Source: Nereocystis luetkeana
Taxonomy: Eukaryota; Sar; Phaeophyceae; Laminariales; Laminariaceae
NCBI GenBank assembly: GCA_031213475.1
Contig: JARUPZ010000003.1
Coordinates: forward strand, 16,920,869-16,984,868
Direction: 5' to 3'
DNA length: 64,000 bases
A program made the translations under genes and the position numbers. A model generated the notes under the pieces. The model made no database searches and was not told the origin of the DNA. It was given only the letters and a program-made list of their open reading frames with translations. This document shows positions 4,301 through 38,400 of this stretch, one piece after another (the first letter of the stretch is position 1; each line of letters opens with the position of its first letter).

Positions 4301-7300
4301 TACCCCCTATAAGTTGGTGTTAGGGTGATAGAGCAGGATGATGATAATCAGGTTATGCCCGTGCCGGACGACTCCTTGCTTCGTACCTCGGACGGCATAC
4401 GTTTCCAGGTATCCTCGCATTGGCCGTTGCTTCGAACGCTACTTTTTGTGGTCAATCTTCCTTCTCAAGCGTCAAGTGGCTTGGCCCTTTTAGGACTGAC
4501 TGTTATTACGGGGGACCATAGTAAATACCTGGTAGGAACTACGGTACACACAAAAACCTCTATGTTACCTATTTTTTTCTCACAATATTTGATCCTATTT
4601 ACTATGGCCCCCCGTAATAGGACCGCAGTCTCGTTTTGGGGACAAACTAGTCAAATCCTAAGTACTTTGTCCCCCAAGCGGGGCTGCAGCCCTAAACGGT
4701 TGAGGTGAGAACATCGAAAGAAACAACAACAACCCAACAGTGCGCGGCAGCACCCACGTTCTCGGAGACAAATAAGTACCTGGTAGAAGTTGGAAGTAGA
4801 CGAGCATCACTTTACACTTTGCAGCACTGCCGTAGCAACGCAGCAACACAGGGTCAACAAAGTCTTGGAATCTTGGATTCTTTGTTCGGCCCGGGCTCAA
4901 TTTGTTAGGGCGTATCCTACACTAACTCCAGCGCCGTTTTATCTCTGCGGGCGAAAGTCGACCACAAAAAGTGCCATCGCGTTTGTACCAGGTATCGTAC
5001 TCGGTACGGTAAGGGTCCCTCTTTTAGCGTCGTGCCGGTGTAGTATGCTATGGCAAACAATACCGGCACTACGGTGGCGAAACGGCACTATTAACCCTTT
5101 TAGAGCCGCGGTCCCGTTTTTCGGACAAATTACTTAAAGTTTGAGTGGGTTGTCCCCAAAACGGGACTGCGGTTCTAAAGGGGTTACGCATCACACTGCC
5201 ACACTGATGATGGGAAAGCTATTTTTTTATTTTATTTTTTTTCCCATCCCATTCATTATCTTCGCACATCTTCTTCTCTCTCTCCTTCCAACTCGTAACT
5301 CAGATCCGGGGTCACATAGCAGGCTCTTCTCCCCCCTTCCCGCTACGGTACGTGCCTTCATTTTTATCGCGAGAAGATTTCAGCCTTTTCTTCCCTCGTC
5401 GACTCGCATCGAATTGTGCCTACCCACGCTGCAAGGCGCTCTCAACAATTGAATCCCTTTTTTTTTATTTTTGCAAATAAAGTCAATGTCCGACCCTCCT
5501 AGGGCTCGAACCCAGGACTCAAACAAGTAGAATTCGAGGTTAACCACTTGAACCACCGGGGCGACCGGGTTTAGTCCACAGGCGGGTTTCCCCGGTGTCT
5601 CAGTTGTATATTACCCTCGAATGCTTGTACTAATAGAGTTGATTCCGTGAGTTCGAATCCCACCATGGTCATCATTTTATTTATTTCCAAAAATCAAAAA
5701 AGGAATCAGCTGCTGAATCCGTTTCCTATGCGGTTCGATTTATGAGCTTCAGATTTTGACCCGGTCGCTTTTTCAGATGTGAACTGGGCGAATCGAAGCA
5801 GTCTTCCTATGCGGAAAAATCAGATTTTGTTGTGCGTGCAGAGGTTCGAGCAAACGCCGAGACCAACTGCTGTTGTTGTGGTCTGGCGCCGCGAAGAGAC
5901 GCGCTGGGTGCGCCGCACTGCGCGTAGGACCCAAGCGTCCGAGCCAAGGGTGACTGCCTCTGGTCTGGCGGTGAAGAGACGTGCCGAGTGCGCTAGAGTC
6001 AACCTGTCTTGGTATTTTGTGTTTCACAATGTGGCTGACTGTTCGCCGCTGCTGCTGTATAGCAGTGTAGTCAACGAGTGCGTATCTACGGAGAGGTAGG
6101 CGCCAAGTGCGCTGCTCTTGGTCTCTAGGCCCGAGTACGTATCCACGGAGAGACGCGCCTACCGCGCGTCGGGCGCGAAGGAACGTCGCTATACACCTGC
6201 CACCGTCCAACTCCTCGATCGTTCTGCTGCTGTTTGCTGTCGTGGATAACACCTTGAATTTAGAGAGCATGCCATTTTTCGATTTGACAATCTGATGACC
6301 CAAGTCGTCGGATTTTGGGCCAAAATTCGACGACTTGGGTCATCGGATTCTCAGAACGTTTTTTTTTCCGGTCGGATTTTGCATATTCGAACTGCGTAAG
6401 CAGGGTCTTTCATTTTTTAGATCGAAATATGCAAATCTGGAGCTCGAAAGCGAACCGCACAAGAAACAGCCTGAGAGTGTGTAGCGTGGGTATTTTAGGC
6501 GCAATGAATGAATTAGACTCTAGTAAACGAGGGGAAAAAAGGGCTGGAGTTCAACAATGGCAAGGCATGAACCATAGTGTGTGCGCCTGTGTGTGTGGGG
6601 GGGGGGTTGCTATGTGACCCCGGATATGACTCACGAATAGGAGGGAGACAGAAAAGAAGGGCGGAGATGATAAATGGGAAGCAAAAAACAAACACAAAAA
6701 CTGGCGAAAAAAGAACAAGAAAATACAGATACCCGTGCACGTAGCGGGCAGGTTATTCGTACCGGGCGGCAGGCACTACCACCAGCACTACGGAGGGGCT
6801 ATTACTACCTGGACTGCAGCTTTATGACAGCATCATGAGCGGTAGTATTACTACTGAAGCTCGGGGTCTTGGGCTAGATGATGGTAGCTGGCCTGTTGGT
6901 GACGTACCTGGTGAAGAAATGGCGTGGTTCGTAATGTGAGAAAAAAGAAGCGACAGAGACACAGCAACGTCCAGCATGCAGGGGCGTGCTGTCTCCTGTT
7001 ATGGTACAGCATACAGACAACGTTAACCTTACGCGACTACGATGGACATATTGTCGTTGGGAGTTGTGTGCCAGTATCAACATACACAAAACATAATGGC
7101 TCATCGGCACGTTCTACGAACGAGTACGGCATGTGATCAAGTTGTAGCTTCCTGTTGGTGTTTATAGTCGCAAGACAGACTCAACGTTCTTGAACATTCA
7201 AGAGAAGCAAAAGTACAACGAACCAAGTGGTATTATAGTGGTGGTATTGGTACTAGTGATAGTCAACCCCTCGATCGGAGATGAACGCACAAACCTTTTG

Positions 7301-9102: not shown

Positions 9103-12100
9103 TCTCCGAGCTCTACAGCAGCCAGCAGCACTCATGGACCCGCGGCCTGTGTCGATTTTCTTTTCATTTTTCCTTTCGCAGGGTGCGACCGCTGTGCGTG
9201 TTTTTTGTTTGTCCCTGGTTCTTGATCACTCCAGTCTGTCTTGTGCGCGGACTATCTATATGCGTAGATCATGGCGGCGACTTTTTTTTTAACAACCCAA
9301 CAACTATTAATAAAATAGTGTCCACCATGCACCAACATATTTCGTTTCTTACTTTGGCTCATCCTCCGGCGGATTGGTTAGGTTCAAGTAAGACTAGCTT
9401 AAGGTCACCACACTGCCACGTTCAAGATTCGTGTCGTGTGCAATTTAACCCGCCGTTCCTGCACGAACGCCCACAAGTTGACGACAGTTGAAAAACATAC
9501 CCTGCTGCGCGAGTTACTGGCGACAACTGTATATTTGTCGCAATTCGGGCACACCGCGAAAATGTCTTACTGTAGGTACCAGCAAGAATCTCTCCCTCCT
9601 CGACGCAGCGCAAATCGCATACAGCAGCAGAAAGCTCTTTCTCCCCCTCACGGCTGTTAATTATTACGGGGGGCCATAGTCAATGGGACCTATGGTATAC
9701 ATAAAAACCTGTATAGTCAACCATTTTTACTATTACGGGGGACCATAAGTTAATAGGACCAAATATTGTTAGTAAAAATGGTTAAATATATACCCTGGTA
9801 GGTCTTTATACATAAAAACCTATAAAGTTGACCATTTTTACTATTACGGGGGACCATAATTAATAGGACCAAATATTGTTAGTAAAAATGGTTAAATATA
9901 TAGGTTTTTATCTATACCATAGGTCCTATTAACTATGGTCCCCCGTAATAACAATATTCGGTCCTAATAACTATGGTCCCCCGTAATAGTTCGTGAGACT
10001 CTCGCATTCGTATGGTGAGAAGACGCGCGCCCGTTCTTTCCTGGTCGACTCGCCTCTACAGTAAGTGCGCAATACACCCACTCGAAGGATGTTTCCAAGC
10101 TGGTTTTATCGGCAGTAAATCACTGAAGCAATAAAAACTACAGGGGCGAGTGCAAGAGCCGGTCTCGAAGCCACCAATTTCGTTCGAGCGTGCCTCCCTT
10201 GCTCTGGAAAAAATCGGCTGCGAAAATCACTCTTAGCCTTCTCTAGTCTTGTGTCATGCTTGGTATAGTATACCTAGTGTTGTACTTGATGTTGTTGTTG
10301 TTCTCACATTAACGCACAATTCAATGCAGTCCGTGGTCGCAGGACAGGCTCCAATAACTCTGGAGTGGAAGAAATACCTCCAAGTAAAAACAGAGGCAAA
10401 AAAACAAAAAAACAAGCATACGCACTCCACCACTGCGGACACCAGGGAAGCAAAAAGGAGACTATTAATAGCAGACAAAAACCTAAAAAAAGAAGATGAA
10501 GCTAAGCAAAACAAAAACAAAAACAAAACTAAAACAGACGCAGATAGCAAAACGCAAAAAAAAAGGGTTAGGGTTAGATATCTTATACCAGGCGGTTCTT
10601 ACGGTATTCCAGGTATTATCCTGTGTGTTAGTTAACCACGTTATTCGGAAAAAAAAGTTGTGATTGGTTTCGGGCCGCAAAACCAGTTGCCAGCCTTCAG
10701 GACCCGAAACTGGCGGTTTTTCCGGCAATTAGTTTCCCAAGATCAGTCTCGGGACGGCATTCAACAGGACCTGGCGCTTCATTTTCAACCTACATCGCCC
10801 CCGGAACTGCCGATTGGATTCGCAACGTGGCGGGTTTCCACACGTTGTGGGAGGCAACACGCGAAACATCTCGGAGGTGCATTCTATCGCGTACGAGTGA
10901 GTACGAGTACTACCGTTCTCCTCGTGGTGTGGTTGCATATTTTTGTTCCAGCTTGCTCTCCAGAACGAACCGAAAAGGGGTAATGATGATGACATCGTGG
11001 TCAGAAAAATGCACGTCTGGTCTTGAGGCTCGAAAAATCCGTTTTTTTTTTTCGGTTTTATATAAAGCTTCCGTAAGAGATGGCCCGAGATGAAGAAACA
11101 AGATCGTCGAAACTCATCTCGATCGCCCGTGCTTCGTACGCACTTCAGAGTATGTATGCATAGTGCATACTGTATCAAGCATGATACCTCTGCCTTTATT
11201 TTGTTGGGTCGATGAAGCACATACGGGGGAGGGGGGGGGGCGGGTGCGGATGGAAACCCTTCTGTCCGTTTACATAGTACTTGAGGTATGTAATCAATTC
11301 CATCATGCGTGGAACAGCAGACACCACAGACCATACCGTGCGAAGATGGCACGTAGGAAGTCGAGCGCCAAGCTCGGCAGTGTTGAGCCTGGAGGAGGAC
11401 GTTATTTTGTTGTCCCTGCAGCGGATTTTATTCCCGTTCATCCGTCGCATTCACTTCACACTTAACACTTAACACTTCACAGGCCCCGGCGGCGTTGTCT
11501 ACAATGTACAGTCCTCAGTCTACAGTCTACAGTCAGTTTTTATGGGTGGTGGCCCCAGTGGGAGTAGCTTCGGGCACGACCCACCGGGCCGTACTTGTTT
11601 GTTCGTTGACCCTGGTGTGCTGCTGGGCTGCTGCTGGAGTTCTCTATCCATTGTGTGTTTTTTTTACTGGAATGTTTTTTTATCCACGGAGAACGTTCCT
11701 CCTGGCGTATGCTCCGTATACCTGGTACTGGTTTACAGTACCTGGTACGTCTACTCTCGTACCGTTTTTTTTTTTTTTTCTTCTCATCCCATTCATTATC
11801 TTCGCACATCTTCTTCTCTCTCTCCTTCCAACTCGTAACTCAGATCCGGGGTCACATAGCAGGCTCTTCTCCCCCCTTCCCGCTACGGTACGTGCCTTCA
11901 TTTTTATCGCGAGAAGATTTCAGCCTTTTCTTCCCTCGTCGACTCGCATCGAATTGTGCCTACCCACGCTGCAAGGCGCTCTCAACAATTGAATCCCTTT
12001 TTTTATTTTTGCAAATAAAGTCAAAGTCCGACCCTCCTGGGGCTCGAACCCCGGACTCAAACAAGTAGAATTCGAGGTTAACCACTTGAACCACCGGGGC

Positions 12101-15100
12101 GACCGTTTCCGGCTGTATGCGGTTATTATTTTAATAGTAGCACGGTGTACCAGGTGTCAGGTGGACTTTTTCCGGGGAACATGCTGCCGTTTTTCTCGTC
12201 GTGAGCAATTAGTGAAACAACTGCGTTGAAATTCATCCGAGCGTTTTGTGTTATACAGCGCCCACATCACGCCGGGGGCAAATAAGTGGACCGTCTAGGA
12301 AAGGCGCACGACAGTTCATACATTCGACAGATCATCTACGGACAGTTCATCTACAGATTTATCATCTACAGAGAGATCGTCTGCATATTTTGTCATCTAC
12401 AGATGGATCATCTGCACATAGATCATACGAAGTACCTGGTATACACATGGACCATCTGCACATATATCATCTACAGATAGTTCATCTGCAGATAGTTTAG
12501 CTGCAGATAGTCCATCTGCAGATAGTTCATCTACAGATATATCATCTATATCCTATCCCGCCGTTATGAAGTACTGTGCAGGATATATACAGCGCAGATC
12601 TACAGTAAGTAAGGAAACGTGTCCTACATGGTGCAGATTATATCACTCCCCCCCGGCAACATGAGCTCCTACGGGGGACCATAGTAAATAGGACCAAATA
12701 TTGCTAGTAAAAATAGCAAAATATATAGGTTTTTGTGCGTACCGTACGTTCTATTTAATATGGTCCCCCGTAATAGATCATCTGCGCTGTAAAGATGTAG
12801 AACAGATGAAGCGTCAAGTGAGAATCGATGATCTGTCAGGTTTGTGCACCAGTTGAAGTATGACCTTCCAGCTTGTTACGTTGCAGTTCGGACACGCCCT
12901 TCAGTCTCTACCCCAGCAGTGCCATTGTAGCACACCATAGTACTAGTATTAGTACCACCGTGCTAAGGGTTTGCTCCGTGTGGGCGATGCTGTCATCATG
13001 GTTTCATTTTGTCGCCTTTTTTCTCCTGAAGCATGATACCACTGTGACCTGTCTGTGGGTACTGTACTCCTTCGTCCCTTTTTTCTCTCAGGTATGTATC
13101 ATACGAAGTATAGGATATATCATATGTTCATACGACGCGTTCTACGATAGCGGTAGCACATTTTCGCTAAAATGCTTTCCGAATGACGGGGCTCCTTGAC
13201 CCAAAATTGTCGGAGTGGCAATCTTGTTTAGAAAATTACGTTTTTGTATACTTGGGACACACGAGACAGTTCATCGGGATGCGATTTGATTTTTGCTGAA
13301 GTCAGTTGTCGGGTGAGGCATGGGGCTGCCTCAGAAACAGAAAAAATAGTGTGAACCTCTATCGTGGAACGCCTCAGACCTAATTTACCAGGTATGATTG
13401 AGGCGTTTTGCCTCTCAAGAATGTCGGCGATGTCGTCGCTTGTTCCCTCTTGAATTCGATAGTGCTTTCGTCGCTGCTCCCCTCTCTAGTGACAGTATGA
13501 TCCCTCGTTGCTATCCGGTCGCTTTTCCCCTCTATTACGGGGGACCATTGTTGATAAAACCAAATATTGGCAGTAAAAATGGTTAAATACATACCTGGTA
13601 GGTAATGTCCACCATGGGTCCTATTAACTATGGTCCCCCGTAATAGTGAAAGTAGGATAATCCCGTGGGGGTCAGAATGATAAAATACGTACCGTAGCGG
13701 GTAGAATGCCTCCATCTCTTGGCTAAGGTCCCTATGCCTTCATCTCCTAGGGCCGAGGCCTTCATCGCGGGCGGCCATTGCTTCAACGTCCACTGACCTC
13801 GGCCATCATACCCCGAAGTACTACATAATGGGTGTGGGGAGTTCCAGCAGTTTGTTAGAACAGCCGTGGTCAGTACTAATGGCCAGTGTTGTCCGTTTCG
13901 GAGAGGAAGCGGGAGGGAAACGAGCAGTCGTGCTTCTCCTTCGCTACTACCCACCATTACGCTCCAATACACGATACTTGTAATTGTACTGGTAGTCTAC
14001 TATTGTCAGTATATACCTGGTATATACTGTTTATATTGTATGCATACGAATATATAACATCAAGGTATTAATAGTATCACTACTATGAATACTACGTCTA
14101 CTACCGTAAGCTGCAACCCCTGCCCTTTTTTTGCTGTGCTCTTAACTGAAACACTCACTGAACAAACAAGTGACGCCATAGTCTACACAGCAAAAGCTTT
14201 TACCCAATTCTTCCGGATCTATGTTCGGGTACAGTGTAGTTTTGATACACAGTAGTTCGACCAAACTACGTATTTATTTGATTCTTTCCATCCGGCTTTT
14301 TTCTCTCCGAGCCTTTATTTTTCACTTTTATACTGTGTACTGCATATACCGCCTCGGAGGCCGCTGACGGCAAAAACCTGCCAAGAGTCGAGGTGAAGAG
14401 TAAAAAGTGCTGACCAAACCCCCCGACGAAACGTTTCGGTTGGACGCGTAGGGGAAGGTAGCACCAGCTGACCAAAAACACATTTCTGCCCGAGGGGTCT
14501 TTTGAACAGAGGAACTTCCCAATAAGGCATACCAGGTACTGAGTATGCCCGTCAGGCATCGTTTTTTTTATTATCGTTTTCGTGAAAGACCTGTTGCTTG
14601 CCAGGTTAAGTGTGCCTTTTTTCTTGAAGGCACATATATATTCTGGGTTCAGAGTCCCTCGCGTCAGGACCCTCCGACGATAGCATGCGTCGGGTGTCAC
14701 TTCCTTTTTTTGTGTCTTTCCTTGGTTTTCACTCTGTTTTGGGTGGTTTCGGCCGCCTCTCGCGTACCGTACAGGACTGAGCTCTGTTTGCTGGCTGTGA
14801 ATCGGTACGGTGTTTCAATTTTCAAATCCCTTCAAAGCGCGGGCGAGGTGCCCGGAATTATTTAGCGTTGCACGTACGTATATAGCGTCCGAAAGCACTG
14901 ATAAAAGCACGAATAAACAAACGTGCAACAGGTCTACATTTACGGTGCATGATGGTGTGTGGCCGCAGCAGTGCAGGTGTGATAGTACGCTGCGCGCGTC
15001 GTGTGTACGGCGCCTTGCTTTACACCTGGTAGGTGGGAACTCCACAGCCATCATACCCTAACCCAGCAGCCCAGTCTGTTTCTCATGGTCGATGACGTGG

Positions 15101-18100
15101 TCGGCAGCTATTTTGCTGTTCTATTCTCCACGCCAATTTCCTCCCCCTTTATCAAGCCCCAACTGGGATAAGCTGGCATTGAAAGCATCCTCCCAGCCTC
15201 GCCGTCCTTGGAGTCGTCTGCACAGACCGCGTTACGGAGGCATTACCAAACTCGACCCACCGCCCACATACCGTTGTGTATCTCAGAGGTGTACAACCGC
15301 TTACCGATTAACCCCGTAACGGTTCAACCCCGTATCGATGGTAGCCGGTACCAAACTCGCCGGGAATGTCATGTACTAGGAAACGCGGTACAAGGTTGTT
15401 GGGGGTAATATATGGTCGACTCCTTGTCGGTTATACCAGGTAGCCGGTACCGAACTCGCCGGCAATGCTACTGTATGTATATAGTACGTGAAAAAAACGA
15501 TTCGAGGTTGTACGCGGTTACGGCCGGTACGCGGGTATAGCCGGGACGGAACTCGCCGGGAATTTTACTGGGAAAAGAGGGGGTACTGTTATTTCTTATC
15601 TATAAAATGTGACGCCTCTGTGTTGATTGGAAACCCGATACATTGTGGGTAACGGCCTCGGCACCGGTTTTACGTGTTACAGTTGAATCGCATTTAAATT
15701 GTACTCATACGTATGATGCGTGTGTACGTACACGCCTTTTCGTTTCGTTCGGACGCTTTTGTTTTTGTTCTTTGTTCAATATTGTAGAGCGGCAGTGGCT
15801 CAGTACTGTTTGGACAAGGGACAGGCCTTCAGGACAAAGCTTATCTACTTCGAGAACGATCGAGAGTTTCCCGGTCAGTTCTATGCAGATTATTCGAAGT
15901 GTGAACATGTTACTACTGTTTGTAGTCTGATGCTGCCTGCCCTCGATAGCTGCCCGAATTAACTATCTGCCGTATAGTCTTTGTTGTATGCTCGAGCGGT
16001 ACGAGTACAAGGTTTTCATTTGTGGGGGCATTCGGACGTAGGGGTGTCGCACGGTAGAATCGGATGTCGTTTTATGCAGATAATAGAAACGAAAAAAGCG
16101 ACCAGCCGTTGATTTGTTGTTTTTTTACTACTCTGCCCGACAATATAAGGATTTATTTTATTTTATTTTAGTACACACACGGACCATATATTTCGGGACG
16201 AAGTGGGTTACCGCCCTATTAGCGAAAGGTATGACGATCAGCGCAAGGAAGTCGGCACCAGGTACTTCCGTGCACCCGTACCGGCGTATGAAGGTATTCT
16301 GTAAACACGACTGTAAACATGACTGCTGCTTATTTACCGGAATACACATAGTTATGGTGGTACTTGTGTGTCCTCCCGCTGACACGTGCAATGCGACGGC
16401 ATATATACGCAGAGGTGGAAGAGCTGGTTCTGGAGAACGTCGAGGAGTACGACCTGGAGCTGGCCCGGTATCAGACCGGCTTCGTAGATGGGCTGAAGCA
16501 GCGCATGGAGGACGGAGGGGGCGACAAGTGCTACGGCTTCGTGTTAGGCACGCGTCAAGGGGACCCCAACTGCGGAGCACAGACGAGCTTCACACCCAGC
16601 AGGCACGGCGGTACCATAAGGGCAAGCTCATTATATTCCAAAAATTGGGGAGCATTCGGATTTATTTTTTTTCTATTTGAACGGTACTTCCATTTGGGGG
16701 CAGGGTAGTACGGCAGTAGTGGTCCCTCTATGGTCCCGGTTGAGTATATTGTTGCCGGCTGTAGTGTCGGTGGAATCGCTTGGCATCTATGGGCACCTAT
16801 GGGCACCTATGGGCACCTATGGGCACCTATGGACACCTATGGACACCTATGGACACCTATGGACACCTATGGACACCTATGGGCACCTATGGGCACCTAA
16901 GGGCACCTATGGGCACCTATGGGCACCTATGGGCACCTATGGGCGCCTATGGGCACCTATGGGCACCTATGGGCACCTATGGGCACCTATGGGCACCTAT
17001 GGGCACCTATGGGCACCTATGGGCACCTATGGGCACCTATGGGCACCTATGGGCACCTATGGGCACCTATGGGCACCTATGGGCACCTATGGGCACCTAT
17101 GGGCACCTATGGGCACCTATGGCGTTAACCAGTGTGGCAGTGGCGGGAGTAGTGCCGCTTGCCGCTATAGTGCCGGCATTATGGACTACTATTACGGGGG
17201 GGCATAGTAGATAGGACCTACTTTATATACAAATACCTAGATATTTCGCAATTTTTACTAACAATATTTTGTTCTATTTACTAAGGTCGCCCGTAATATT
17301 AGTAAAGTAGTCAACAGTACCGGGACTACGGATGCATCTCCGATAGCTCGCCCTCCGCAAACATGTGTGCCAGGCAGTCTAGACGAAGAGCTATATTTGT
17401 TTTACCAATATATTATATCATATAGTATCAATAGTATTAGTAGTATGAATAGGAGCTCACACCAGAAAAACGTGTGATGTCTTTTTTTGTTTAATTATTT
17501 TTCAAAGCTAAGAGTATTCAACTGCCCAGAGCGCATAGCGTGGGTAGGCGCTAGTACATCAATTAGACGCGAGTCAACAAGGAAAGAAAGGAATGAAGTC
17601 TTCCTCCCGATAAAAATGAAGGCAATGGAACCGTCGCACGGAAGGGGAAGGGAAGCCTGCTACATAATCGAAACCCCGGATCTGAGTCACGACTAGGAAG
17701 GACAGAAAGGTGACGGTAATAAACGGGATGGAGAAAAAAAAAAAAAGTGTGTGTGTGCCAACCGTTTTCGCGAATGGGCGGTGAGCGCTACTGCTCGTGA
17801 TGACCGGTCTCCTATCGTATTCACCCGCACGTTTCAACCATTCCCACCACCGCCAGGTGAAACGTGATGTCTTGCCACCATAAATGTTGTTGGTGCTGCT
17901 GCTTTCGGAAACTAAACATGTAAGCATGAAACCGTGCAACGTCTGTATGTGCTGCCGTTCCAGCGACTGGATGCCTCCGTTCATGCGGGTCAACCCCATC
18001 CTCGACTGGAACTACGGCCAGGTCTGGGGGTTCCTGCGGACGTTCGAGCTGCCCTACTGCCCGCTGTATGACAAAGGGTACACGTCTCTGGGTGAGGCCA

Positions 18101-20246: not shown

Positions 20247-23200
20247 GTTTATATCATTGAGTAAGAAAACAATAGCTGTGAGATATATACACCTTGCCCA
20301 TGATATTTTTGTTTCAGGCGTAGCTTTCATTCGTTTTGTCAAGGCGGATTGTTGGCTCAGGTTCGTACAATTAAATCTAGCTTCCATAGTATCATACTAT
20401 TATCCTGTAACCCAAAACCGAATTAGGCCGTAGTTGTGCTCGCATGTTTTATGACTTGGATTACTGTACTACCGGTTCGCGAGACGCCGAACTGTGTGAG
20501 GTACTATTTAACGATAGTGTTCTCAGTATTAGTCGTATTACGGGGGACCATAGTAAATAGGACCAAATATTGTTGGTAAAAATAGGTAAATCTATAGATT
20601 TTTGTGTCTACCGTAGGTCCTACTTAGTATGGCCCCCCGTAATAGTACAGAGCTACAACAAGGTGAAGAGCTTCAACTTTTCTTTGAGAGATGTGTACCG
20701 GGTATATCTCTACAAATACCTGGTGGGTGCTACCTTTTACTGCAGTATAGGAAGCCTAGCCTTGTCCCGGAGGTGACGAGGTCGCGAAGGTGTCGGCTTG
20801 GTGGATAGGTCCCTGGTACGGGGGTCCCGGGTAGGCGTGTTTACCGCATCGTGAGTGAGTCGAGCGAATTTTATTCCTCCAGAGGTGACAAGGAGATGTC
20901 AAACTTTATAAGTTATGGTACGTTGGGTGGGCTTCTTGTAGACGTTACCAATCGAACCCTGAGATTGACACGAGGACCGGTCAAGCCCGTCAAAGACGGG
21001 AGACCGCATGCGACCCGAGATCTTCTGGTGGGGTACTTTGTTCCGGTTTTTCCGTGTATGCGTGTTCCAAGATCTAAGATAGAGGCATACGACCCTGTCC
21101 TTCACAAATATTATTGGTAATATATTAGTATCAGCGTCCCGAATGATGATTGTGTTGTACCTACTGTAGTATTGCATTTTTACACACTTGGTATTACATA
21201 CTGGTAGGGTTTACTAGGATGTTATGTGTATTTGTTGGAGTCCAGCGTGGTGTGATAGTTGAGGTATTTTCGAAGTGTGGGGGTACAGCATACGGTAGAA
21301 AGTCCATGCCATATATGAAATGCCGCCCACGTGTAGTGCAACTCCGTTCGAGTCCTACAGCATCTCATAGTCCATTCGAGTCAATTCGAGTCCTACAGCA
21401 TAAGAATCGTGTCATATTGATGTATGATGAGAGCTGTCCGCTGCACGTAGTCACCTTGCATGGCCTGTGGCTGATGCTGATTGCCCCCCTCTGTAGCGCA
21501 ACCTTATACGAGTACGGCATATTCATCGTCTTCAAGTCCTCACAGGGCTAACAGCACTCCGTGACGATCTTGGACCGAACCTTGAGCATCGGGGTTGCAT
21601 GATGAATGCTGAATGTTGAGTGTTGACTGCCAAAAGCAGCTGTCAAATGTTGAATGCTGAATGTTGAGTGTTGAATGTCACGAGCAGCTGTCCAATGTTG
21701 AATGCTGAATGTTGAGTGTTGAATGTCAAGTGCAGCTGCCACATGTTGGATGCTGAATGTTGAGTGTTGAATGTCAAATGCAGCTGTCAAATGTTGAACG
21801 CTGAATGTTGAGTGTTGAATGTCAAATGCAGCTGTCAAATGTTGAATGCTGAATGTTGAAGGGCAATACCGTACGATACTGTGCAACGACACCCCACTGT
21901 AACTCACCCACCAGAGACCTGGAGAGCAAGCGGCGGAAGGTGCGAGAAGCTCGATCTGCCGGCCTAGTGGTGATTGGAGACGAGATTTTGAAGGGGAAAT
22001 GTCAAGACAGCAACACCGCTTTTGCCACGCAGAAACTGTGGGAGAAGGTGAGGGGAGGCACGAAGGGGGAAGGGGGAAATAACTACGCTTCCTTGATGCG
22101 AAACGTTTGCTCGAGCGCGTATTGAATGATACACCTCGTCGTTTGTCCTTCTGTGCGTCCGATGCGATGTGTGTGTGTTGGTTTGTGGTTTGTGGTTTGG
22201 ACAGGGCATCCCGGTGAAGCGAGTGGCGGTTGTGGCTGACGACGAAGACGCCATCATGGACGAGGTCAGCCCTCCCTCATTACTGCGTTCGCAGTGCTTT
22301 TGTGTAGCCAGGCAGACCGGGTAGGAGATCACGTCTTCGGAATCCAAAGTGTGGACTAGGTCAGCCCTCGTTGCTTTCTCGAAGTTGTGCCCTCTGAGAG
22401 CTTTCGTCTGACCGGGTAGACCGGGTTGGGGATCTCGTCTCTTGGAATCAAACACCTGCTTGTGTGTAGTAGCGATGGGCATTCATTTGCCGTGTCAAGG
22501 GGCAGGGCACGTCGTTTTCGTTCTACAGTAGTGGTGCCTTCTGATTGGTTTGTGTAACCGGCTAGGCTTGGCGGTGGACCTCCTTCTTATGAACCGACGG
22601 ACATATTACAATAGTACGCGAAGTGTTGAAAGGCTCTGTTTGCCGTTTCACAAAGGGGCAGGAGATGTCGTTTTTTGTTCTAGTTGTGATTTGTGTAACC
22701 GACTAAATCGGGCAGGGGACCCCGTCTTTACAAGAACCCATTATATGTTACTGTAGTACGCATAGTGTCGATAGGAACTGTTTGTCGTGTCACGAAGAGG
22801 GTGAGAGATGTCGGAGTTTTTGTTTCGCTTGTATTTTGTGGTGGCTTTGTTGCTCCATCAGGCTGACCTTGTCTCGTGTAGCGTCGGCTGCCTTGTCGCC
22901 GTTGTAGTTGCGCCAAACAGCCTCTCGTGGAGGGCAGCACGTCACAAAATAGTGAACACATCTGACAGATCATTTGACAGGTCGTATCAGTGTAATGCCG
23001 AGTGAGGCGTCCTTGATCTGTATGATCTGTACTACCTTTTCTGTCTCCCCGAGTGGGAGTAATGAACACCCCCCCCCCCCCACCCCCTTGTGACGCTGTT
23101 ATCCATAAGCAAGAACATCCGCCTCAAAAAGCGGTTCTTAGTAGGATGCAGCTCACCTTTCATGCGCCTCGCCCCAATACCTCACGTCGCTTGCTTCGCG

Positions 23201-26200: not shown

Positions 26201-28942
26201 CGCAGCTCTGGATATTTTTCAGTTGCTTGCGAAAGCCTGGTTTTGTGTTGTTACGTTTCCATGGTTAGGATGGATTTACCGTGGTTACGACTTTTCTGTC
26301 ATGATTCAGACAGTAATATGTGTGTGTTCTTCACAATAAACCGTTCTTTCTACCCGTCGAGATCCAGCACAACCAGTGTCCGTGCCGATTCTTCAATCCT
26401 AAAAGAGATAACAAGTGCTGTGGTCACAAAGCTATGCCACAGAGATACTACATTGCCACGTATGCAGTAAGCACAGTGGGCAATGCAATGCCATGTTGTC
26501 ATACTGGATACGACAGGCAGTACACACACATTCTATGAAATAGAGAAACGAAAGAAAACAAAGAAAAAACCAAAACAAAGAAGATAAATCGGAAGAGAAA
26601 AAGAAGAAAAAAAACAAGAAGAAACACACTGTCGTGCCCCCCCCCGCAGGAGATGTGGCAGGCGTTTGAAAAGAACGAGCTGGGAAAAAAAGAAAAATAT
26701 GAAAAACACCACTACGTGTAAACAGAGTGAGACTGACAACGAAGAGAAAATAACAGGCAAACTAAAGCACAAAGCACCCTCCAGGTAGCGGCAGCAGTTT
26801 GTGGGTACGAGTAGCATAGCCAGGTTCTCCCTGCTAGTCCGCCTGGTATCTTGTTACCCTGGCTAGCCGTCACCGTCCTGCGTTCGTCACCTATGCCCAG
26901 CCCCTCGGCGTCAGACAAGACGAAACAAGCAAAGCAGGCTCGTCATCCACCCACGCCACACGACTCCTTCAATCAGGCTTACCTATCGAAGAAAAAAAGG
27001 GAAATATATAGAAATAAAATCATGAGAGGATCAGCGCAAGAAAGAAAAAAAAGAAAAGGAAGAGAAGAGAAGACAAGGGAAGGCCACGTTCGAACGAGCT
27101 GCACCAGTTGGTAGCACGAGTAGTATAGTCATGTTCTACTTCCTATTAATAGTCGGCCTGGTGCCTCGTGAAGGTAGGTCGTGGTTAGTAGCAAAGTGTG
27201 TCGTGTTAATAGTTACCTTATAGCACTATCGTCCTTCGGAATGGGTACAAGCCGAGGTTTTTTTGTGTGTCGCGTTTATGTGTCCTGGCTCTGTAGCTTT
27301 ATAGACAGTTAACCGTGATTAGTTGACTCGGTCTTGAGGGCAGCCAAGTATTTCGCCTATGGAGTATTTCTTGTTTGTTTTTTTGGGGGGGGGCAAACGA
27401 AGAGCGACCCCAAAAGCGACAAGTGCCAACTTATCAACCTGCTATTTGGTACCAGGTACTCATATAGACCCAGAAAAACAAAAAGTGCAGAGTAATCCAA
27501 CCTATTAGTAGTACTAGCAGTATACAAGTAGGAAGAACGGACGACGTACCACAACACCCGTGCTGCACCCATGTCTCATCGTGTCGTACTTTTATTTTGT
27601 ATTCCGGGCGCGTCCTCTATCCCACGGAAGCCCCAGCTGCTCTGGTGTCCGATGCCGATGTTGTATTTGTAAACCAAATTACCTCCTTCCTCCCCCTCTA
27701 TAGTATAACAAAGCACAAGGAATTATCAACATGGTTATGAAAGGAGGCCCTGAAACGGAGACATGTCTGACTGTCGACGTCCCTCCAGCGAGCAGGATCC
27801 GCTTTGCGTGTCATTGCGTTCGGTACCATGGGGCCGCCGCTCCTTGGCTCCTCATTCCGATCCTTAAAAATGCCTTGCAAGGCTGAGATTGAACGGATGT
27901 ACCTCAATCGGGCTTCATTCGGGCTTGGCTTGGCTTGGCTTGGCTTGGCTTGAAAAGTGTTTCTATTCTGGTGCTCTGCTGTCGACCACGCTTCTGTATT
28001 TCTTCAACGCTCTGTTTTCGTCTGTTTTTGTTCTTGTTCCGGCAGCACGTGAAGAAGATCGTTCTATCAGCAGACGAATTTTTGATTGTGGACTTCCTCA
28101 ACGACGCTGTGGCAGCTCACCCGAAGGTCACCTTCGGCAGCTATCCCTTCTTCTCCAACCCTGCCTACAAGACGGTAAGCTTCAGATCCCCCCCGCCCCC
28201 CCCTCCCCGGGGTTGCCAGGAGCCCCCCCCCTCCCTCTTTCTCCCCTCTCGCCCCCCGTCCATGCAACCATCCCTCTGCACCTCTCGGTTTTCGATCTTC
28301 TAACCAACCAACCGATCCATCGCTGAAACAATCGATCGAACGCTTGAGCGAATAGCCGATCGCGTTCACCAATCAAACCCAATGTATCGTTGAACCAACC
28401 ATGCGATTGGTCGCTTGACCTTATCGCCAAGTAGCCGATGGCCTGACCAGTCGATCGGTCGTCTGGCCAATTCTCCGATCGCATGACGATTTTTCCGATC
28501 GTTTAACCTATCAAAACGAGTCGAAAGGAGTGGGGTATCTCTCACCCTTTCAAACGAAATGTATCGCTTAGCCAACCCGTAGAATCAAGCGACCGATCGA
28601 TCGTTCTACCAGGTATATAATACACAAGCGCTCGAGGTATCGCTGAACCTGCCGACCGCTATCAGACACTCCATCGCGTTACCAATCAACAACCAACAAC
28701 AGTGTATCGCTCGACTAACCAATCAAAATCAATCGATACAAATCAATCAATCAATGCATCAAGCAATCAATCAACCAACCCACCAATCAGTCATGTTCAA
28801 TCCGTGTTTCTTCACCCAGGTGGTGACGATGGAGGGGGAGCTTCAGGAAGACGTATTAGCAGCAACGAAAACCCTGGAAAAGTTGCTACCCAAAGACTTC
28901 GTCGTCAAGGTCGTAGCAGACGACGACCTTATGGACGTTTGA
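1313..28942 (+). CDS. FLAD1: FAD synthase with C-terminal molybdopterin-binding-like domain, 13 exons
   Basis: Transfers AMP from ATP to FMN to make FAD; the cytosol is the usual site. Exons: 1313-1465, 2430-2524, 15788-15873, 16413-16602, 17964-18091, 19432-19636, 21915-22047, 22205-22264, 23924-24046, 25337-25408, 25734-25901, 28046-28174, 28820-28942. They join in phase to 554 codons plus TGA. Residues about 50-285 form the PAPS-reductase-like FAD synthetase domain: SYNGGKD (PP-loop), [38 protein letters not shown] and [16 protein letters not shown]. Residues about 300-400 form the MoaB/CinA-type domain: [10 protein letters not shown], then [11 protein letters not shown]; exons 10-13 complete the C-terminus. 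From memory, this order matches the Arabidopsis homologue and reverses human FLAD1. The ATG at 1313 is the first in-frame one after a pyrimidine-rich leader; an earlier non-coding exon is possible. Intron 2 is 13.3 kb and intron 4 appears to have a GC donor. Family identity is firm; exon 1 is supported by phase and length only. Confidence 0.93.
2070..2145. mobile_element. MITE family B copy 2
   Basis: AGGACTGCAGTCCCGTTTTG at the left and GGGACTGCGGTC at the right, diverged in the middle. FAD synthase intron 1. Confidence 0.82.
4504..4619. mobile_element. MITE family A, copy 1 (carries ACCWGGT inserts)
   Basis: Family consensus: about 110 bp, nearly a full inverted repeat. It begins TATTACGGGGGACCATAGT, has AATAGGACC and TAGGTTTTTGTG inside, and ends ACTATGGTCCCCCGTAATA, with TA as the likely target duplication. 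This copy has an extra ACCTGGT at 4527-4533, where other copies read AAATAGGA straight through. Confidence 0.92.
4617..4697. mobile_element. MITE family B copy 3, abutting a family A copy
   Basis: AGGACCGCAGTCTCGTTTTG at the left and GGGGCTGCAGCCCTAAAC at the right. It begins at the last bases of the family A copy ending at 4619. Confidence 0.85.
5092..5188. mobile_element. MITE family B copy 4
   Basis: AACCCTTTTAGAGCCGCGGT at the left and GGGACTGCGGTTCTAAAGGG at the right, about 30 bp from a SINE. Confidence 0.88.
5222..5566 (-). mobile_element. tRNA-derived SINE, family 1, copy 1
   Basis: Read on the minus strand, the 5' head is tRNA-like: box A TGGTTCAAGTGG and box B GGGTTCGAGCC, in about 80 bp. 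A conserved body of about 200 bp and an A-rich tail (5222-5243 on this strand) follow. Copies at 11765 and 48424 are nearly identical, so the family has moved recently. Confidence 0.9.
5721..6467. mobile_element. Inverted-repeat element of about 747 bp
   Basis: Left arm 5721-5758 and right arm 6432-6467 are imperfect inverted repeats sharing TGCGGTTCG, TTT and GAGCTYCAGATTT. Part of the left arm recurs in direct orientation at about 5806-5832. The interior has duplicated GC-rich blocks (GAGACGYGC) and a 27-bp palindrome. No transposase. Confidence 0.6.
6292..6346. repeat. 27-bp-arm palindrome with 1-nt centre
   Basis: Left arm CTGATGACCCAAGTCGTCGG plus ATTTTGG; right arm is its reverse complement with 2 mismatches in 27, centre G at 6319. 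It would extrude as a near-loopless cruciform. Confidence 0.92.
6478..6700 (+). mobile_element. Diverged SINE family 1 body
   Basis: Reads in the opposite direction to the other copies: TAGCGTGGGTATTTTAGGCG, then TATGTGACCCCGGATATGAC and GGAGATGATAAATGGGAAGC. The tRNA head is not recognisable, and a poly-G tract was inserted. Confidence 0.7.
7520..7640 (-). repeat. Dispersed repeat F, copy 2
   Basis: The reverse complement reads GATGCAGCTCACCCTTCATG, CACCTCACGGCGCTTAGCGC, GTGCAAGCAATGTCTGCC, matching 985-1080. FAD synthase intron 2. Confidence 0.75.
8155..8312 (+). repeat. Dispersed repeat D, distant copy
   Basis: GATCTAGATCATCGATATCA, CTGCCGCTGTGAATAGAGGT, GCAGGATCTGTGTATGG and CACCCGGCAACTTGGG follow the same block order as the other two copies. 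Confidence 0.5.
9071..9102 (+). repeat. (CAG)n microsatellite
   Basis: About ten CAG triplets in FAD synthase intron 2. Similar CAG/AGC runs lie at 778-800, 1833-1860 and, inside DNAJC21 exon 9, at 43608-43663, where they encode poly-Ser. Confidence 0.9.
9663..9988. mobile_element. MITE family A, nested cluster of three or four copies
   Basis: Repeated TATTACGGGGG..CCATA and CCCCCGTAATA ends with interleaved arms show copies inserted into or next to one another. One arm carries an ACCCTGGT insert at about 9801, at the same position as the insert in the copy at 13533. Confidence 0.88.
10291..10566 (+). repeat. Dispersed repeat G, copy 1 (276 bp)
   Basis: Begins GTTGTTGTTGTTCTCACATT, contains CAGTCCGTGGTCGCAGGACA and CTATTAATAG, and is A-rich toward the end. 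An almost identical copy in opposite orientation is at 52734-53010. No tRNA boxes or inverted ends were seen; type unknown, perhaps a retroposed RNA with an A-rich 3' end. Confidence 0.85.
11765..12104 (-). mobile_element. tRNA-derived SINE, family 1, copy 2
   Basis: Nearly identical to the copy at 5222-5566, including the tRNA-like head (about 12026-12104) and the A-rich tail at the low-coordinate end. FAD synthase intron 2. Confidence 0.9.
12331..12560 (+). repeat. Minisatellite of ATCATCTACAGAT type units
   Basis: Units of 12-15 bp (TCATCTACAGATAG, TCATCTGCAGATAG) recur about 13 times inside FAD synthase intron 2. One unit is interrupted by TACCTGGTA at 12433. It runs into a longer dispersed repeat at about 12540-12668. 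Confidence 0.8.
12540..12668 (+). repeat. Dispersed repeat D
   Basis: Shared blocks: ATCTAGATC/ATCATCTA, CCGCCGTTATGA, GTRCAGGATATRTACA, GTGTCC and CGGCAACATGAG. Other copies are at 38560-38722 (close) and 8155-8312 (distant). Confidence 0.65.
12670..12775. mobile_element. MITE family A copy
   Basis: ACGGGGGACCATAGTAAATA at the left and TGGTCCCCCGTAATA at the right. It lacks the ACCWGGT insert and so serves as an uninterrupted reference copy. Intron 2 of FAD synthase. Confidence 0.92.
13138..13376. mobile_element. MITE family E copy (about 240 bp)
   Basis: Ends GCGTTCTACGATAGCGGT and, reverse-complemented, GGCGTTCCACGATAGAGGT. A second full copy lies at 59697-59940, and related inner parts lie at about 18660-18945 and 19105-19310. 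FAD synthase intron 2. Confidence 0.75.
13533..13645. mobile_element. MITE family A copy with ACCTGGT insert
   Basis: Ends TATTACGGGGGACCAT and TGGTCCCCCGTAATA. TTAAATACAT is followed by ACCTGGT and then AGGT, where other copies read TTAAATATATAGGT. Confidence 0.9.
15335..15575 (+). repeat. Three tandem-like copies of GTAGCCGGTACC..ACTCGCCGG
   Basis: Blocks near 15342, 15440 and 15535 share a KAGCCGGKACNRAACTCGCCGGVAAT pattern, separated by about 95 bp of weaker similarity. The array lies in FAD synthase intron 2 just before exon 3. Confidence 0.7.
16791..17120 (+). repeat. 10-bp minisatellite, 33 units (GGGCACCTAT)
   Basis: Units sit in exact decamer register with a few GGACACCTAT variants and single changes. 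It lies inside FAD synthase intron 4 (16603-17963). Because the period is 10, all three + strand frames are open through it and encode the same 10-residue repeat, [10 protein letters not shown]; this is a consequence of the repeat, not a gene. Confidence 0.97.
17190..17298. mobile_element. MITE family A copy
   Basis: TATTACGGGGGGGCATAGTA at the left and GGTCGCCCGTAATA at the right. It sits just after the 10-bp minisatellite in FAD synthase intron 4. Confidence 0.88.
17512..17752 (+). mobile_element. Diverged SINE family 1 body
   Basis: Contains AGAGCGCATAGCGTGGGTAG, GATAAAAATGAAGGCA, CCCCGGATCTGAGTCACGAC and an A13 tail. The tRNA head is missing or unrecognisable. FAD synthase intron 4. Confidence 0.75.
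18660..19310. repeat. Two diverged inner parts of MITE family E
   Basis: 18660-18945 has GAGTGACGGGGGGGCTCCTT and CTCAAAATCAGTTTTTTTTG; 19105-19310 has GAGTGCTGCATTAAAAACAC and CTCAAAATCGGTTTTGAG. They resemble each other and the inner part of family E. Intron 5 of FAD synthase. Confidence 0.5.
19561..19865 (+). repeat. 155-bp tandem duplication covering the exon 6 / intron 6 junction
   Basis: Copy A (19561-19715) holds the last 76 bp of FAD synthase exon 6, its donor (CTTAG/gtgagcc) and the first intron bases. Copy B (19716-about 19865) repeats this with few changes. Copy B keeps the donor sequence, but its exon-like part has an in-frame TAG (TCTAGC) where copy A has CTCGAGC, so only copy A can be used. 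Confidence 0.9.
19939..20048. mobile_element. MITE family A copy
   Basis: TATTACGGGGGACCATAGTA at the left and CTATGCCCCCCCCGTAATA at the right, in FAD synthase intron 6 after the duplicated exon end. Confidence 0.92.
20536..20644. mobile_element. MITE family A copy
   Basis: TATTACGGGGGACCATAGTA at the left and TATGGCCCCCCGTAATA at the right, intron 6 of FAD synthase, no insert. Confidence 0.92.
21600..21862 (+). repeat. 48-bp minisatellite, about 5.5 units
   Basis: Units contain GCTGAATGTTGAGTGTTGAA and CAGCTGTCAAATG. It ends about 50 bp before the acceptor of FAD synthase exon 7 at 21915, and it displaces the pyrimidine tract an acceptor normally has. Confidence 0.9.
22240..22815 (+). repeat. 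Diverged tandem repeats in FAD synthase intron 8
   Basis: The first pair repeats GGTCAGCCCTC, starting at the exon 8 donor and again at about 22358, with GACCGGGT and GGAATC blocks about 96 bp apart. A second pair has a period of 141 bp (TGTGTAACC at 22551 and 22692). Units are 70-85% alike by eye. Confidence 0.7.
23064..23480 (+). repeat. Dispersed repeat F, copy 3, with a tRNA box A-like stretch
   Basis: Matches 905-1150 (AGGATGCAGCTCACC, ATACCTCACGTCGCTTGC). Its second half (CCGTCCCGGCATTGTA..GCATGATA) is repeated once. Between the two lies TGGCCTAACGGCTAAGGC (23354), like the D-arm/box A of an Arg-type tRNA, but no box B follows. FAD synthase intron 8. Confidence 0.65.
24060..24570 (+). 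repeat. Irregular array of CAGTAGCCCCGGC motifs in intron 9
   Basis: The core CAGTAGCCCCRGC recurs about eight times, often preceded by TCGCGRTWTA and followed by ACTGTGTTG, at uneven spacing of about 30-120 bp. It reads as a decayed minisatellite. Confidence 0.7.
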
Positions 28943-32678: not shown

Positions 32679-32879
32679 GGCACATATATACCTGGTACCA
32701 GGTACAACGTACAACAGCATGTACAGCAGTGGTCAAACCAACTACTGGCACCGATACGAGCGAGAGGAGGGGGCGTTCAGTTGCCTCGGACAGGACTGCA
32801 GCCTGCAACCTGAGATGTTGACGAGCTGACAAGGGGCGGCAGAGACCTCATATAGTTTCGCGCCCTGTGTGGGTATTTA

Positions 32880-34679: not shown

Positions 34680-34786
34680 TTACCCTTTTAGAACTGCAGT
34701 CCCGTTTTGGGGACAAACCACTCAAATTTCAAGTAGTTTGTCCCCAATTGTCCCCAAAACGAGACTGCGGTCCTAAAAGGGTTAAG
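34680..34786. mobile_element. MITE family B copy 5
   Basis: ACCCTTTTAGAACTGCAGTC at the left and GACTGCGGTCCTAAAAGGGT at the right: the best preserved ends of the family. TTGTCCCCAA is duplicated at the centre. Intergenic. A decayed sixth copy lies at about 53025-53080. Confidence 0.9.
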
Positions 34787-35278
34787 CTGCCCCGAACCGA
34801 ACTTTTTTTGGAAAAGTGCGGCCGCACCTGCCGCCCTTTCGTTCTACTGTACCTAGTGTTCGGGTTGGGGTCAGGGTTGGGGTCCGGTTGGACCTAGACC
34901 GATGTGCAAGATAGAATTTTTCCATGGCAGTGGCCGTGCACAAGATATTTTGCAAGGCGGCGATGCAATTAGGGCTATACCCCTGTGTGCAGTCACCAAC
35001 CCTCCTGCTCGTCCATGTATCTACTGTAAAATCGAACGTAGATTTTATAGCGGCATCACGCAGAATCGGTATCAGGTATATTTTTCGGCGGGTGTATTCA
35101 CTGACTGCGGCCGCATTCTGTAACCCATCTCAATCAACATACTGTACCTTCCTGGTATGACATACCTGACACCTGGTATTTGTATCAGGTAGGCCTGATA
35201 CGATGAACACTTTGGCAATATGAAGGACAAAGGAGATGAATGAAGATGAATGAAGATGAATGAAGATGAATGGGATGA

Positions 35279-35470: not shown

Positions 35471-38400
35471 ATGATGATGCTGATGATGACGATAATGAGG
35501 ATGATGATGGTGGTGGTGGTGGGGGTGATGGTGATGATTATGATTATGGTGAAAATGATGATGATGATGATGCTGCGCAGGTGGCTCTGAACGTGCCACG
35601 CGATGCCACGTCGTCGGACATCAAGAAAGCTTACAGGAAGCAAGCCTTGCAGTGGCACCCGGACAAAAATGTAAGTTTGACGTGCGCGAGTGCTGTCGTA
35701 TGAAGGAGAAAGCTGACTTTTCGTGTTGTACGCGCTGCGCAGGGTAGAGGATACCCTCGAGTTTTTGTGGCGTCGTTTGTCTAAAAATAATGAGTAGAAG
35801 GGACTACCATGTAGTACGATGCATACGATGAGAGTGACGAGTGACGATCCCACATGCTGTTACGTGCTTCCGAGCGAAGCTTGTCCAAAGCAAGGGAGGC
35901 GCACACATCAAATCGGCGTTTGGTTTTCACCTGTCCGTTGTCGATAAATCCAGGTCTGAAAATCGTTCGAGGGTGTGTGTGTTTTCATGCGTGTTGTATT
36001 ATCAGTACGTACTGCTCGTAGTAGCATTGATGAAGGGACTAAGGGGGGACTAAAGAGGGGGCTTGCCTGACGGAAACGGCGGCTGGAGATGTCGCGTGTC
36101 TTGGTTTGCAAGGCTGTGCCGCACATCTTGTAGCAAAACGGTTGGACCTTGTTACCGTGCACTGAGACTGCTCTCTTCAGTTGCATGCAAAGGGTGTGAG
36201 GGTATGACAGCGCGATGCCCTGTACAAATGGCCGGGCGGTACAGATAGACTTCCTCATATACATACTCGTACTGTTGTAGTCTTTTTTTGTGACTACTGC
36301 ACTACACACTATATACTGGTAGACACCAGGGCATCACCTTTGACACGAACCTTCCCGTTTACTGTAGCTGGTATAGTCCATACATGGTATGATATCAAAT
36401 GTGGCCCGACATGATTTGTTACATGGTGTACTGCTTAACGTACTCCATACATGTAATCTGACGCATGAAGAGGTCTACGACATTAAATTGTATTTCCAAT
36501 ATGTTTTTGGCATGGTGTCTGGCTCGATGTATGTCTACATATATACGACACGACACATGACACAATTTATGGCATTGTGTATGACATTGTGACATCGCAG
36601 GTAGGCAATGAGGCGGAAGCTCACGTGCGATTCCAAGAGCTGCAGCACTCCTACGCTGTGTTGAGCGATGCACACGAGAGGAAATGGTACGACGAGCACC
36701 GCGATGAGATTCTCAATCCGGCTCGGTACGGTGATGATGGCGCCAACAGCGACGGAGAGGGAGGGGGCGGACGAACCGTCAATCTCACCAAGTACTTCAG
36801 GTAGGGGACGGGGTTGTGCCGCTGCTGAAAAATTGGAAAGATTTTGTGATTCGGGAAGGGGACCCTATCCTTCCAAGGTGGCGCTGGCTCATGCAGGCTC
36901 TATGGCTCAAGAAGTTTGAGGATTTTTAATGGTAGTGTATACGATGGTGGTAAAGAGGCTACTGCTGTGATGGTGGAGTTGTGGTCCTCAAGTGCTGTAG
37001 CGATGCTACCACCTCGCCAATACTTTTGTGGTATCAGGTAGGTGCTGTCGTGCAATGTAAGGTACTGCCTCATACCATAAATGTATATACTGCCTGATTG
37101 GTTTTTGGCCTTTGCCCTTTCGCTGTCTCCGTGTTCGTCGAGCGTTTATAAATATTGAAGGCAGTACGCTTTCTCCAGGGGCAGTGAAGGGAGTTTTTGT
37201 CTCGCGTTTCGCTTGGCGCAGTTGTGCAGTTGTGTCGTGGCGGAAGAATCCTCCCTTTCGGGGGGTATACGCGCTAGAACCACCTACCGCTTTCAGCTTA
37301 CAACCCGATTCATCATTTCGCCTTTAATAATAGTGCGGGGGACAAAAGTAAATACCAGGTAGGACCTGTGGTACACACAAAAACTATGTACCTATCTTTT
37401 TTTACTGACGATATTTGGTCCTATTTTACTATGGTCCCCTGTGATACGAAGTTGTTTTTTGTGATAAGTCGTATTGCAATGTACACCTGGCACGTGTCGC
37501 TTGTACTTCAAGATGTGACCTGCAATGAGAGGTTATCAAACCCTTTTATAACTGATAGTACTGTGCGGAAGCAGGTACCTAACTCTAATTATAAGTAATT
37601 CGAGGCTACTCTTCCCCAAAATGAGAGTGCATTCCTATTCAGAGTTTTCACCGTGGTACATATCATAGACGTAGTGGATTTTAATGAGACAACTCTCAAG
37701 GAAAGTGTCCCGCAAAAGACCTAATGAACGCCTTCTTTCTTCTGGAAACCCTAAATTCCTGCTCGTATGATGTATATGTGTATATATATATATTTGCAGC
37801 GCTGCGGCGTTCGCCGGGTTCGGAGACGATGAGTCAGGCTTCTACCAGACGTACAGCAACGCTTTCCGAGAGGTTTGGGACTCCGAGAGCGAGTGGGGTG
37901 AAGTCTCTTCTGACGCTCGAAATACCAATGTGCGATGGGGACAAGGCGATGCTCCCGAGATGGGCGGCTCTACGTCGACGTATGAAGTGGCGGAGGAGTT
38001 CTACTCTAGTTGGAGCGCGTTCGTGTCTGGGCTGTCGTTCGGGTGGGTGGACGAGTACAACGTCAATGAGGTGAGGAGCTGAAACGAGCACGCGTCAAAT
38101 GTCGAGAGAGTCGTGTGCTTTGCTTTCGGCTGCTTTGCTTTCGGCGGTGATGTCTTGTGTAGAAGCGACCATCATTGATGGCCCTGAGTGTGAAACCGTC
38201 CTCTTCTCTCCCTTTGAAGCGGTCCTTGGTGACCTTGACAAGTGTTTGTGTTGGTCTGGTTTGCTGTTCTCCCGCGCGAATAGGCTGCTACTATAATGTC
38301 TACCTCGCCATACCTGGTGTATTACGAAGGACTCTTTCATGCGAAACGCGGTAGTAGTGCGACCTGCTTTGTGTCTCTCCGTGCAGGCGTTGCTGCTGCT

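Follow-up and report, generated by a model that had tools for sequence, protein, structure and literature searches.

The seven-base word ACCWGGT (W being A or T) recurs throughout the window analysed here, the whole 64-kb stretch of Nereocystis luetkeana DNA taken from contig JARUPZ010000003.1, and it arrives as a unit at TA steps: copies with and without it were found at two positions of a family of miniature inverted-repeat transposable elements (MITEs), called MITE A, and in at least one clean case outside that family. The best available reading is that each TACCWGGTA is the excision scar, or footprint, of a departed DNA transposon with a TA target duplication, a reading to which we give a probability of about one half. 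If these are scars, earlier excisions of transposons can be read from the window at nearly one event per kb, with a cut offset of five bases, beyond what is quoted for Tc1/mariner elements. If they are not, the cell adds a fixed seven-letter word to its own DNA by a route still unknown.

The abundance of the word was measured in several ways. ACCWGGT is present 63 times in the window versus 8.72 (standard deviation 2.96) in 100 shuffles, none of which reached 63, and TACCWGGTA 39 times versus the 0.97-1.05 expected from a third-order Markov model. TA-CCWGG-TA leads all the TA-N5-TA words by a wide margin (39 versus 0.67 expected, z of 35) and is still in excess when the preference of each flank is allowed for (39 versus 22.9, p of 1e-7). 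Comparing the 64 heptamers xyzWz'y'x' that stand between T and A, we counted 39 for ACCWGGT, 43 for the remaining 63 summed and 10 for the runner-up. The inserted word varies very little and reads as a palindrome around its middle base; at the 39 TACCWGGTA sites this base is T 22 times and A 17 times. ACCWGGT is also the recognition word of SexAI, and we saw no link between this and the mechanism.

The bases on either side are as characteristic as the word itself: T..A in 39 of the 63 sites, C..A in 10, T..G in 8, C..G in 1 and others in 5, where chance would give about two sites in the C..A/T..G class and about one in the T..A class. Relative to the available steps, this amounts to 10.2 sites per 1000 for TA, 2.3 for CA, 1.8 for TG and 0.27 for CG. 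The original prediction had the TA duplicated in every case; TA does stand on both sides in 39 of the 58 sites lying between a pyrimidine (Y) and a purine (R), but 18 of the 58 have C on one side and one has it on both. In the 39 T..A sites the 78 bases adjoining the TA are A 31, G 28, C 15 and T 4, with T depleted (p of 0.0009), and the target of the insert is symmetric, R-TA-Y. The sites are mostly solitary and widely spaced (gaps below 40 bp occur at only six places among the 63), and the flanks of the 58 sites have no long similarity, except for the pair 4527/37354, which shares 34 of 40 flank bases (the second-best pair shares 23). The sites start at the following positions:

T..A sites, part 1: 3711, 3964, 4109, 4129, 4527, 4778, 4987, 11720, 11740, 12434, 13387, 13593, 14015
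T..A sites, part 2: 14531, 15435, 18554, 27451, 28608, 30147, 32690, 32697, 34015, 37354, 39328, 39394, 45029
T..A sites, part 3: 46064, 46218, 47856, 48202, 49096, 52047, 54773, 56632, 57977, 59580, 61984, 62851, 63872
C..A sites: 15024, 16257, 26101, 35171, 39067, 39464, 45998, 46075, 48923, 62351
T..G sites: 6906, 12149, 20718, 38312, 38734, 46050, 54056, 63769
C..G site: 46614

The arrival of the seven bases as a unit was examined by removing them, joining the flanks and searching the window for an empty paralogous copy. The test covered 54 of the 58 Y-ACCWGGT-R sites, listed by hand, with 4109, 4129, 12434 and 39328 left out as parts of simple-repeat arrays. Empty counterparts were obtained for five of the 54 (4527, 13593, 15435, 37354 and 61984), compared with two among 286 TA-N5-TA words of other sequence (Fisher p of 0.0014) and 8 of 2867 random 7-bp deletions; a stricter ungapped version gave 2/54, 0/286 and 4/2867, respectively. 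An empty TA is thus found as the pre-insertion state, as with a Tc1/mariner-type footprint. A sixth filled site, 9792, carries an 8-bp variant. An unbiased list of clean gaps of 4 to 30 bp between repeats (26 rows) included the motif at 4525-4528 and 37353 and missed 13593, 15435 and 61984. The filled sites and their empty copies are:

4527..4533: ACCTGGT insert in MITE A copy 4504, MITE position 1; other MITE A copies give 12 empty-site matches
37354..37360: ACCAGGT insert in MITE A copy 37331, MITE position 1, with the opposite W; 8 empty-site matches
13593..13599: ACCTGGT insert in MITE A copy 13533, MITE position 2, where other copies read TATAGG
9792..9799: ACCCTGGT, a variant insert of 8 bp, MITE position 2; 4 empty counterparts, the best 98% over 50 bp
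9842..9952, plus strand: MITE A copy with both positions empty
12670..12775, plus strand: empty MITE A copy, reading GTAAATAGGACC
20537..20644, plus strand: empty MITE A copy (copy 20536 of the original prediction), reading GTAAATAGGACC
41624..41731, plus strand: empty MITE A copy
61984..61990: ACCTGGT insert in a short local repeat, non-MITE; empty copy at 61856-61883
61856..61883, plus strand: empty-site paralog for 61984, 26 of 28 bases of the joined flanks identical (93%)
15435..15441: ACCAGGT insert in a degenerate local repeat, non-MITE, a weaker case; empty copy at 15324-15368
15324..15368, plus strand: empty-site paralog for 15435, 80% over 45 bp

Most of what the original prediction reported for MITE A is present in the sequence. 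Copies 4504 and 37331 do read GTAAAT, then ACCTGGT or ACCAGGT, then AGGA, copies 12670 and 20536 have the empty form given above, and copy 13533 carries its insert at the position claimed. The insert was said to be exactly 7 bp in every case, which is true of three of the four MITE inserts and not of 9792-9799. The contrast of before and after states needed correction: copies 4504 and 37331 are opposite in orientation to 12670 and 20536, so that opposite arms of the inverted repeat had been compared, but the homologous arm has an empty TA as well. Insertion as a unit and the preference for TA are supported by the flank counts, the Markov excess and the empty-site tests. Two findings had been named as fatal to the idea, inserts confined to one homologous MITE position and a lack of empty sites outside MITEs. 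Instead, the inserts occupy two MITE positions and two non-MITE repeats, and of the non-MITE pairs 61984 is clean and 15435 ambiguous, its gap boundary being uncertain and its paralog reading GGTAGCC. Against a second copy of the 61984 repeat, at 62036-62109, the aligner placed the gap elsewhere. Inheritance of all inserts from one MITE ancestor was rejected, 61984 and 15435 lying outside MITE A.

Whether the two inserts at MITE position 1 arose separately depends on the comparison used. In the multiple alignment the nearest relatives of 4504 and 37331 are other, empty copies (identities of 0.82 and 0.80). With gap-scored pairwise alignment the best match of 37331 is 4504 (score 110, against 101 for the runner-up), and that of 4504 is 20536 (122). 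In a tree of 14 MITE A copies, none of whose forks is fully supported, the two do not form a group. Independent insertion is possible on this evidence, as is common descent of the two inserts. MITE position 2 is common to copies 13533 and 9730, and for both the nearest copy is the empty 9842.

A second sequence of one locus is available in P0031, a protein from an ENA contig of 1108 bp and the one database protein matched by the stop-to-stop frame 3639-4280. That frame runs over four motif sites:

3711..4135: stretch with motif sites at 3711, 3964, 4109 and 4129; peptides across all four recur in P0031

Of 136 residues compared, 134 agree between P0031 and the translation of the window, and one of the two mismatches is the start residue of P0031; the agreement runs through the first two motif sites (LYTWYT, LYQVRY). 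Beyond a TA repeat the frame of P0031 departs from that of the window; the final 24 residues of the protein recur unchanged in a different window frame, which begins at 4109 and crosses the remaining two sites. The comparison is one of protein letters, not DNA, and concerns filled sites only, with no empty allele. By these letters, the motif would not be an artefact of this assembly.

The excision-scar reading accounts for these observations as follows. A DNA transposon would enter a TA step, duplicate the TA and later leave; its transposase would cleave both ends five bases into the element, leaving a 3' tail CCAGG on both flanks; the two tails would anneal through four G-C pairs and one A-A mismatch; and repair would fix the mismatched middle base as A or T. 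The element itself would now be rare or extinct here. We infer the cut offset, the annealing of the tails and the repair of the middle base from the form of the sites. The original prediction had proposed the footprint of a transposon with CCWGG ends; the form does fit Tc1/mariner footprints, but the window yielded no intact element of this kind.

Other short words bounded by TA are also in excess in the window: TATTAATA (23 versus 1.8 expected), TACGAGTA/TACTCGTA (14 versus 2.3) and TACNGTA (58 versus 20.8, part of the excess being inside MITE A copies). MITE A ends read TA-TTACGG, and these ends share with TATTAATA a preference for C-TA-G, which is expected if MITE A leaves scars: C occupies 29 of 46 flank bases for TATTAATA and 13 of 22 for MITE A against a background of 0.20. 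The corresponding p values (4e-10 and 8e-5) are too small, because the sites are partly non-independent: three TATTAATA lie within one 9-bp tandem array (34083-34110) and two overlapping ones adjoin a MITE A end (44674-44687). From the flanks, we propose that TATTAATA may be the excision scar of MITE A, and one site has an empty counterpart:

27144..27151: TATTAATA in a CTAG target, proposed as an excision scar of MITE A; empty counterpart at 26807-26847, 83% over 41 bp

TACGAGTA/TACTCGTA are possibly another scar family; G adjoins the TA in 17 of 28 flank bases of TACGAGTA (raw count). Minos leaves a similar scar, TA-CGAG-TA. Patterns of MITE A had no match in the viral contig and genome contig collections. 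The sites of TACGAGTA/TACTCGTA are:

TACGAGTA/TACTCGTA sites: 1997, 10902, 16000, 21507, 24634, 26806, 31245, 31251, 32079, 36264, 46276, 47943, 53776, 55911

Several observations weigh against excision scars. The size quoted for Tc1/mariner footprints is 2-4 bp (PMC7913693), and five element bases per scar exceed this. CCWGG ends with continuing inverted repeats were not found in the window among pairs 60-20000 bp apart, the best of 1595 pairs matching at 14 of 20 bases; a control search for AGGWCC ends picked out pieces of MITE A at 20/20. About 55 scars would thus be without a parent in 64 kb, compared with 16 aligned copies of MITE A for 23 TATTAATA. One-sided C flanks (C..A or T..G) number 18 versus 1.85 expected and the symmetric CA..CA/TG..TG forms 3 versus 1.27, which is unfavourable because a 2-bp duplication at a CA target should give CA..CA. 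Close variants are scarce (TACCCTGGTA, TACCAGGGTA, TACCATGGTA and TACCTTGGTA, once each). The five empty counterparts are a small number, with two at one MITE position, maybe by common ancestry, and 15435 ambiguous; the doubtful independence of the 4504 and 37331 inserts is a small loss to scars and to direct micro-insertion, discussed below, alike. The other TA-bounded words did poorly in the same test: TATTAATA (TTAA) gave empties for 1/23 versus 4/311 controls, which is no better, TACGAGTA (CGAG) for 0/14, and TACNGTA for 2/58 versus 1/226, both poor (one a degenerate local repeat, one gapped). The TTAA of the proposed MITE A scar also breaks the rule of a central W. Apart from these points, no Tc1/mariner-type transposase was found with Pfam among 19 open reading frames (ORFs), none of which reached the cut-off for any family, and twelve 15-kb read-through frames; the latter covered both strands of 28.0-43.0 kb, the plus strand of 43.0-58.0 kb and the minus strand of 49.0-64.0 kb. 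The whole words TACCTGGTA and TACCAGGTA were not found in the open-licence literature among the matches listed, nor was any report of a five-base W-centred footprint in its titles and abstract openings.

The one-sided C flanks are better accommodated by direct micro-insertion, which we regard as a possible but doubtful account: an undescribed process would place the 7-bp ACCWGGT between a pyrimidine and a purine (mostly T^A, less often C^A/T^G), at about 0.85 per kb, with neither target duplication nor resident element, for example by adding the same near-palindromic tail to both 3' ends of a break and annealing them. The order of the flank counts fits pyrimidine-purine steps. Among single-mismatch forms of TACCWGGTA only the outer T-to-C class is clearly enriched (18 versus 2.05 expected), all internal classes summing to 23 versus about 14. 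With the internal classes little above expectation, the inserts are young or maintained. For the same reason ordinary decay of the TA was ruled out as the source of the C flanks, which look like a property of the process, not wear; the T-to-C excess is absent from TACGAGTA and TATTAATA. The lack of a parent element in the window, the few variants and the lack of long shared flanks outside 4527/37354 also favour direct micro-insertion. Against it, the origin of the seven letters is unexplained, the CA target state has to be assumed, since for C..A sites the window provided no empty copy, and one-sided TA also arises with a true transposon. For Sleeping Beauty, whose commonest non-TA targets are CA/TG, two of four sequenced non-TA insertions showed a perfect duplication, and the other two had TA on just one side (PMC5801840). 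As for a candidate machinery, we know of no enzyme that places such a fixed 7-bp unit, which also counts against it.

Selection could also keep the palindrome as a protein-binding or methylation site, the MITE differences being incidental, which we consider improbable. The motif is symmetric and dispersed at about 0.9 per kb, and HIP1 is a known palindrome of comparable kind (PMC4390886); as a dispersed palindrome far above expectation, ACCWGGT is HIP1-like in the window. The 7-bp gaps against paralogs and the small excess of near matches inside the core, unlike a binding motif, speak against selection. Growth of heptamer tandem repeats, as in some bacteria, with single units left over, is highly improbable. 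A scan for the TACCWGGTACCWGGTA pattern gave 9 viral and at least 118 genome loci (at least 127 in total); the 14 examined in detail hold heptamer runs, some of them (L076, L030 and L100) with single units nearby, and the window itself has four head-to-tail junctions, two via a GCCAGGT variant:

32690..32703: head-to-tail motif pair (ACCTGGTACCAGGT); a second insertion into the TA created by the first, or slippage
56625..56638: head-to-tail motif pair; the base before the first motif is A, not a pyrimidine
46050..46081: cluster of three motifs and one GCCAGGT variant

The solitary spacing of the window sites argues against such growth, and the TACCWGGTACCWGGTA loci, having been selected for the tandem pattern, are uninformative on how frequent single units are there. 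Because of their heptamer runs, these loci were set aside as a phenomenon of another kind. In L060, L067, L104 and others, tandem ACCTGGT/ACCAGGT runs lie in bacterial contigs of several phyla, and several loci have additional single TACCWGGTA above expectation. Telomerase-like tail addition found no support; a GGGTTAGGGTTAG stretch lies near 10570. Finally, an assembly or base-calling artefact is hardly credible: the window DNA comes from one assembly only, but the P0031 peptides span all four motif sites of 3711-4135.

The window has a guanine-plus-cytosine fraction of 0.49 and contains 12 stop-to-stop frames of at least 220 amino acids; ARAGORN found no tRNA in it, and Rfam gave no match at gathering scores. 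The read-through Pfam scan detected FLAD1_M near 28.0 kb and two further matches below the cut-off. DnaJ, zuotin-homology and C2H2 (jaz) zinc-finger domains extend across 35587-41241 on the plus strand, by our reading a probable DNAJC21-like gene. Since the domains of one kind of gene are spread over kilobases, the sequence by itself points to an intron-bearing eukaryote as host. The protein encoded at 50584-51687 has 22 relatives among 8000 candidates scored, 21 of them on contigs no longer than 16.7 kb and one on a 560-kb contig. In the protein collection, identities of 97, 83 and 70% are reached by relatives of a gene in the window. Other repeats and one further gap were observed:

16782-17122: tandem array of the 10-bp unit GGCACCTATG, 34 copies, 97% matches
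5225-5568, 11765-12105, 48424-48766: three copies of a repeat, 341-344 bp long, that appear to form one family
210-302, 2066-2144, 34679-34787: second inverted-repeat element, with ends like TTAGGACTGCAGTCCCGTTTTGGGGAC
33901-33907: another clean 7-bp gap (CGAACAG) between two repeat copies, CGAA being repeated around CAG (one case)

Returning to excision scars, the closest known system is Sleeping Beauty, with its two consensus footprints TACAGTA and TACTGTA (PMC4378557); canonical scars form the majority only in some cells (PMC3770610), so that the literature is divided on how few variants to expect. Its scar is likewise an odd palindrome with W in the middle and TA on either side, left at TA steps; it has three inner bases where the motif has five (CCWGG), and its system differs from ours, in which 18 of 58 sites have a one-sided C flank and no parent element was seen in the window. 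The footprints of Stowaway and Osmar5 elements in grasses and yeast are also short pieces of element ends between TA copies, but they take several forms, with 1-4 bp of the terminal repeat (PMC1925063), whereas our motif is nearly invariant. Within the window, MITE A and its proposed scar TATTAATA offer another TA-bounded short palindrome, presumably left on excision like the motif; there the target is CTAG and element copies are present, while the motif prefers RTAY. Finally, HIP1 (GCGATCGC) of cyanobacteria is likewise one short palindrome at very high density (PMC4390886), but it is even where ours is odd, the window looks eukaryotic, and the filled and empty paralogs described here point to insertion.

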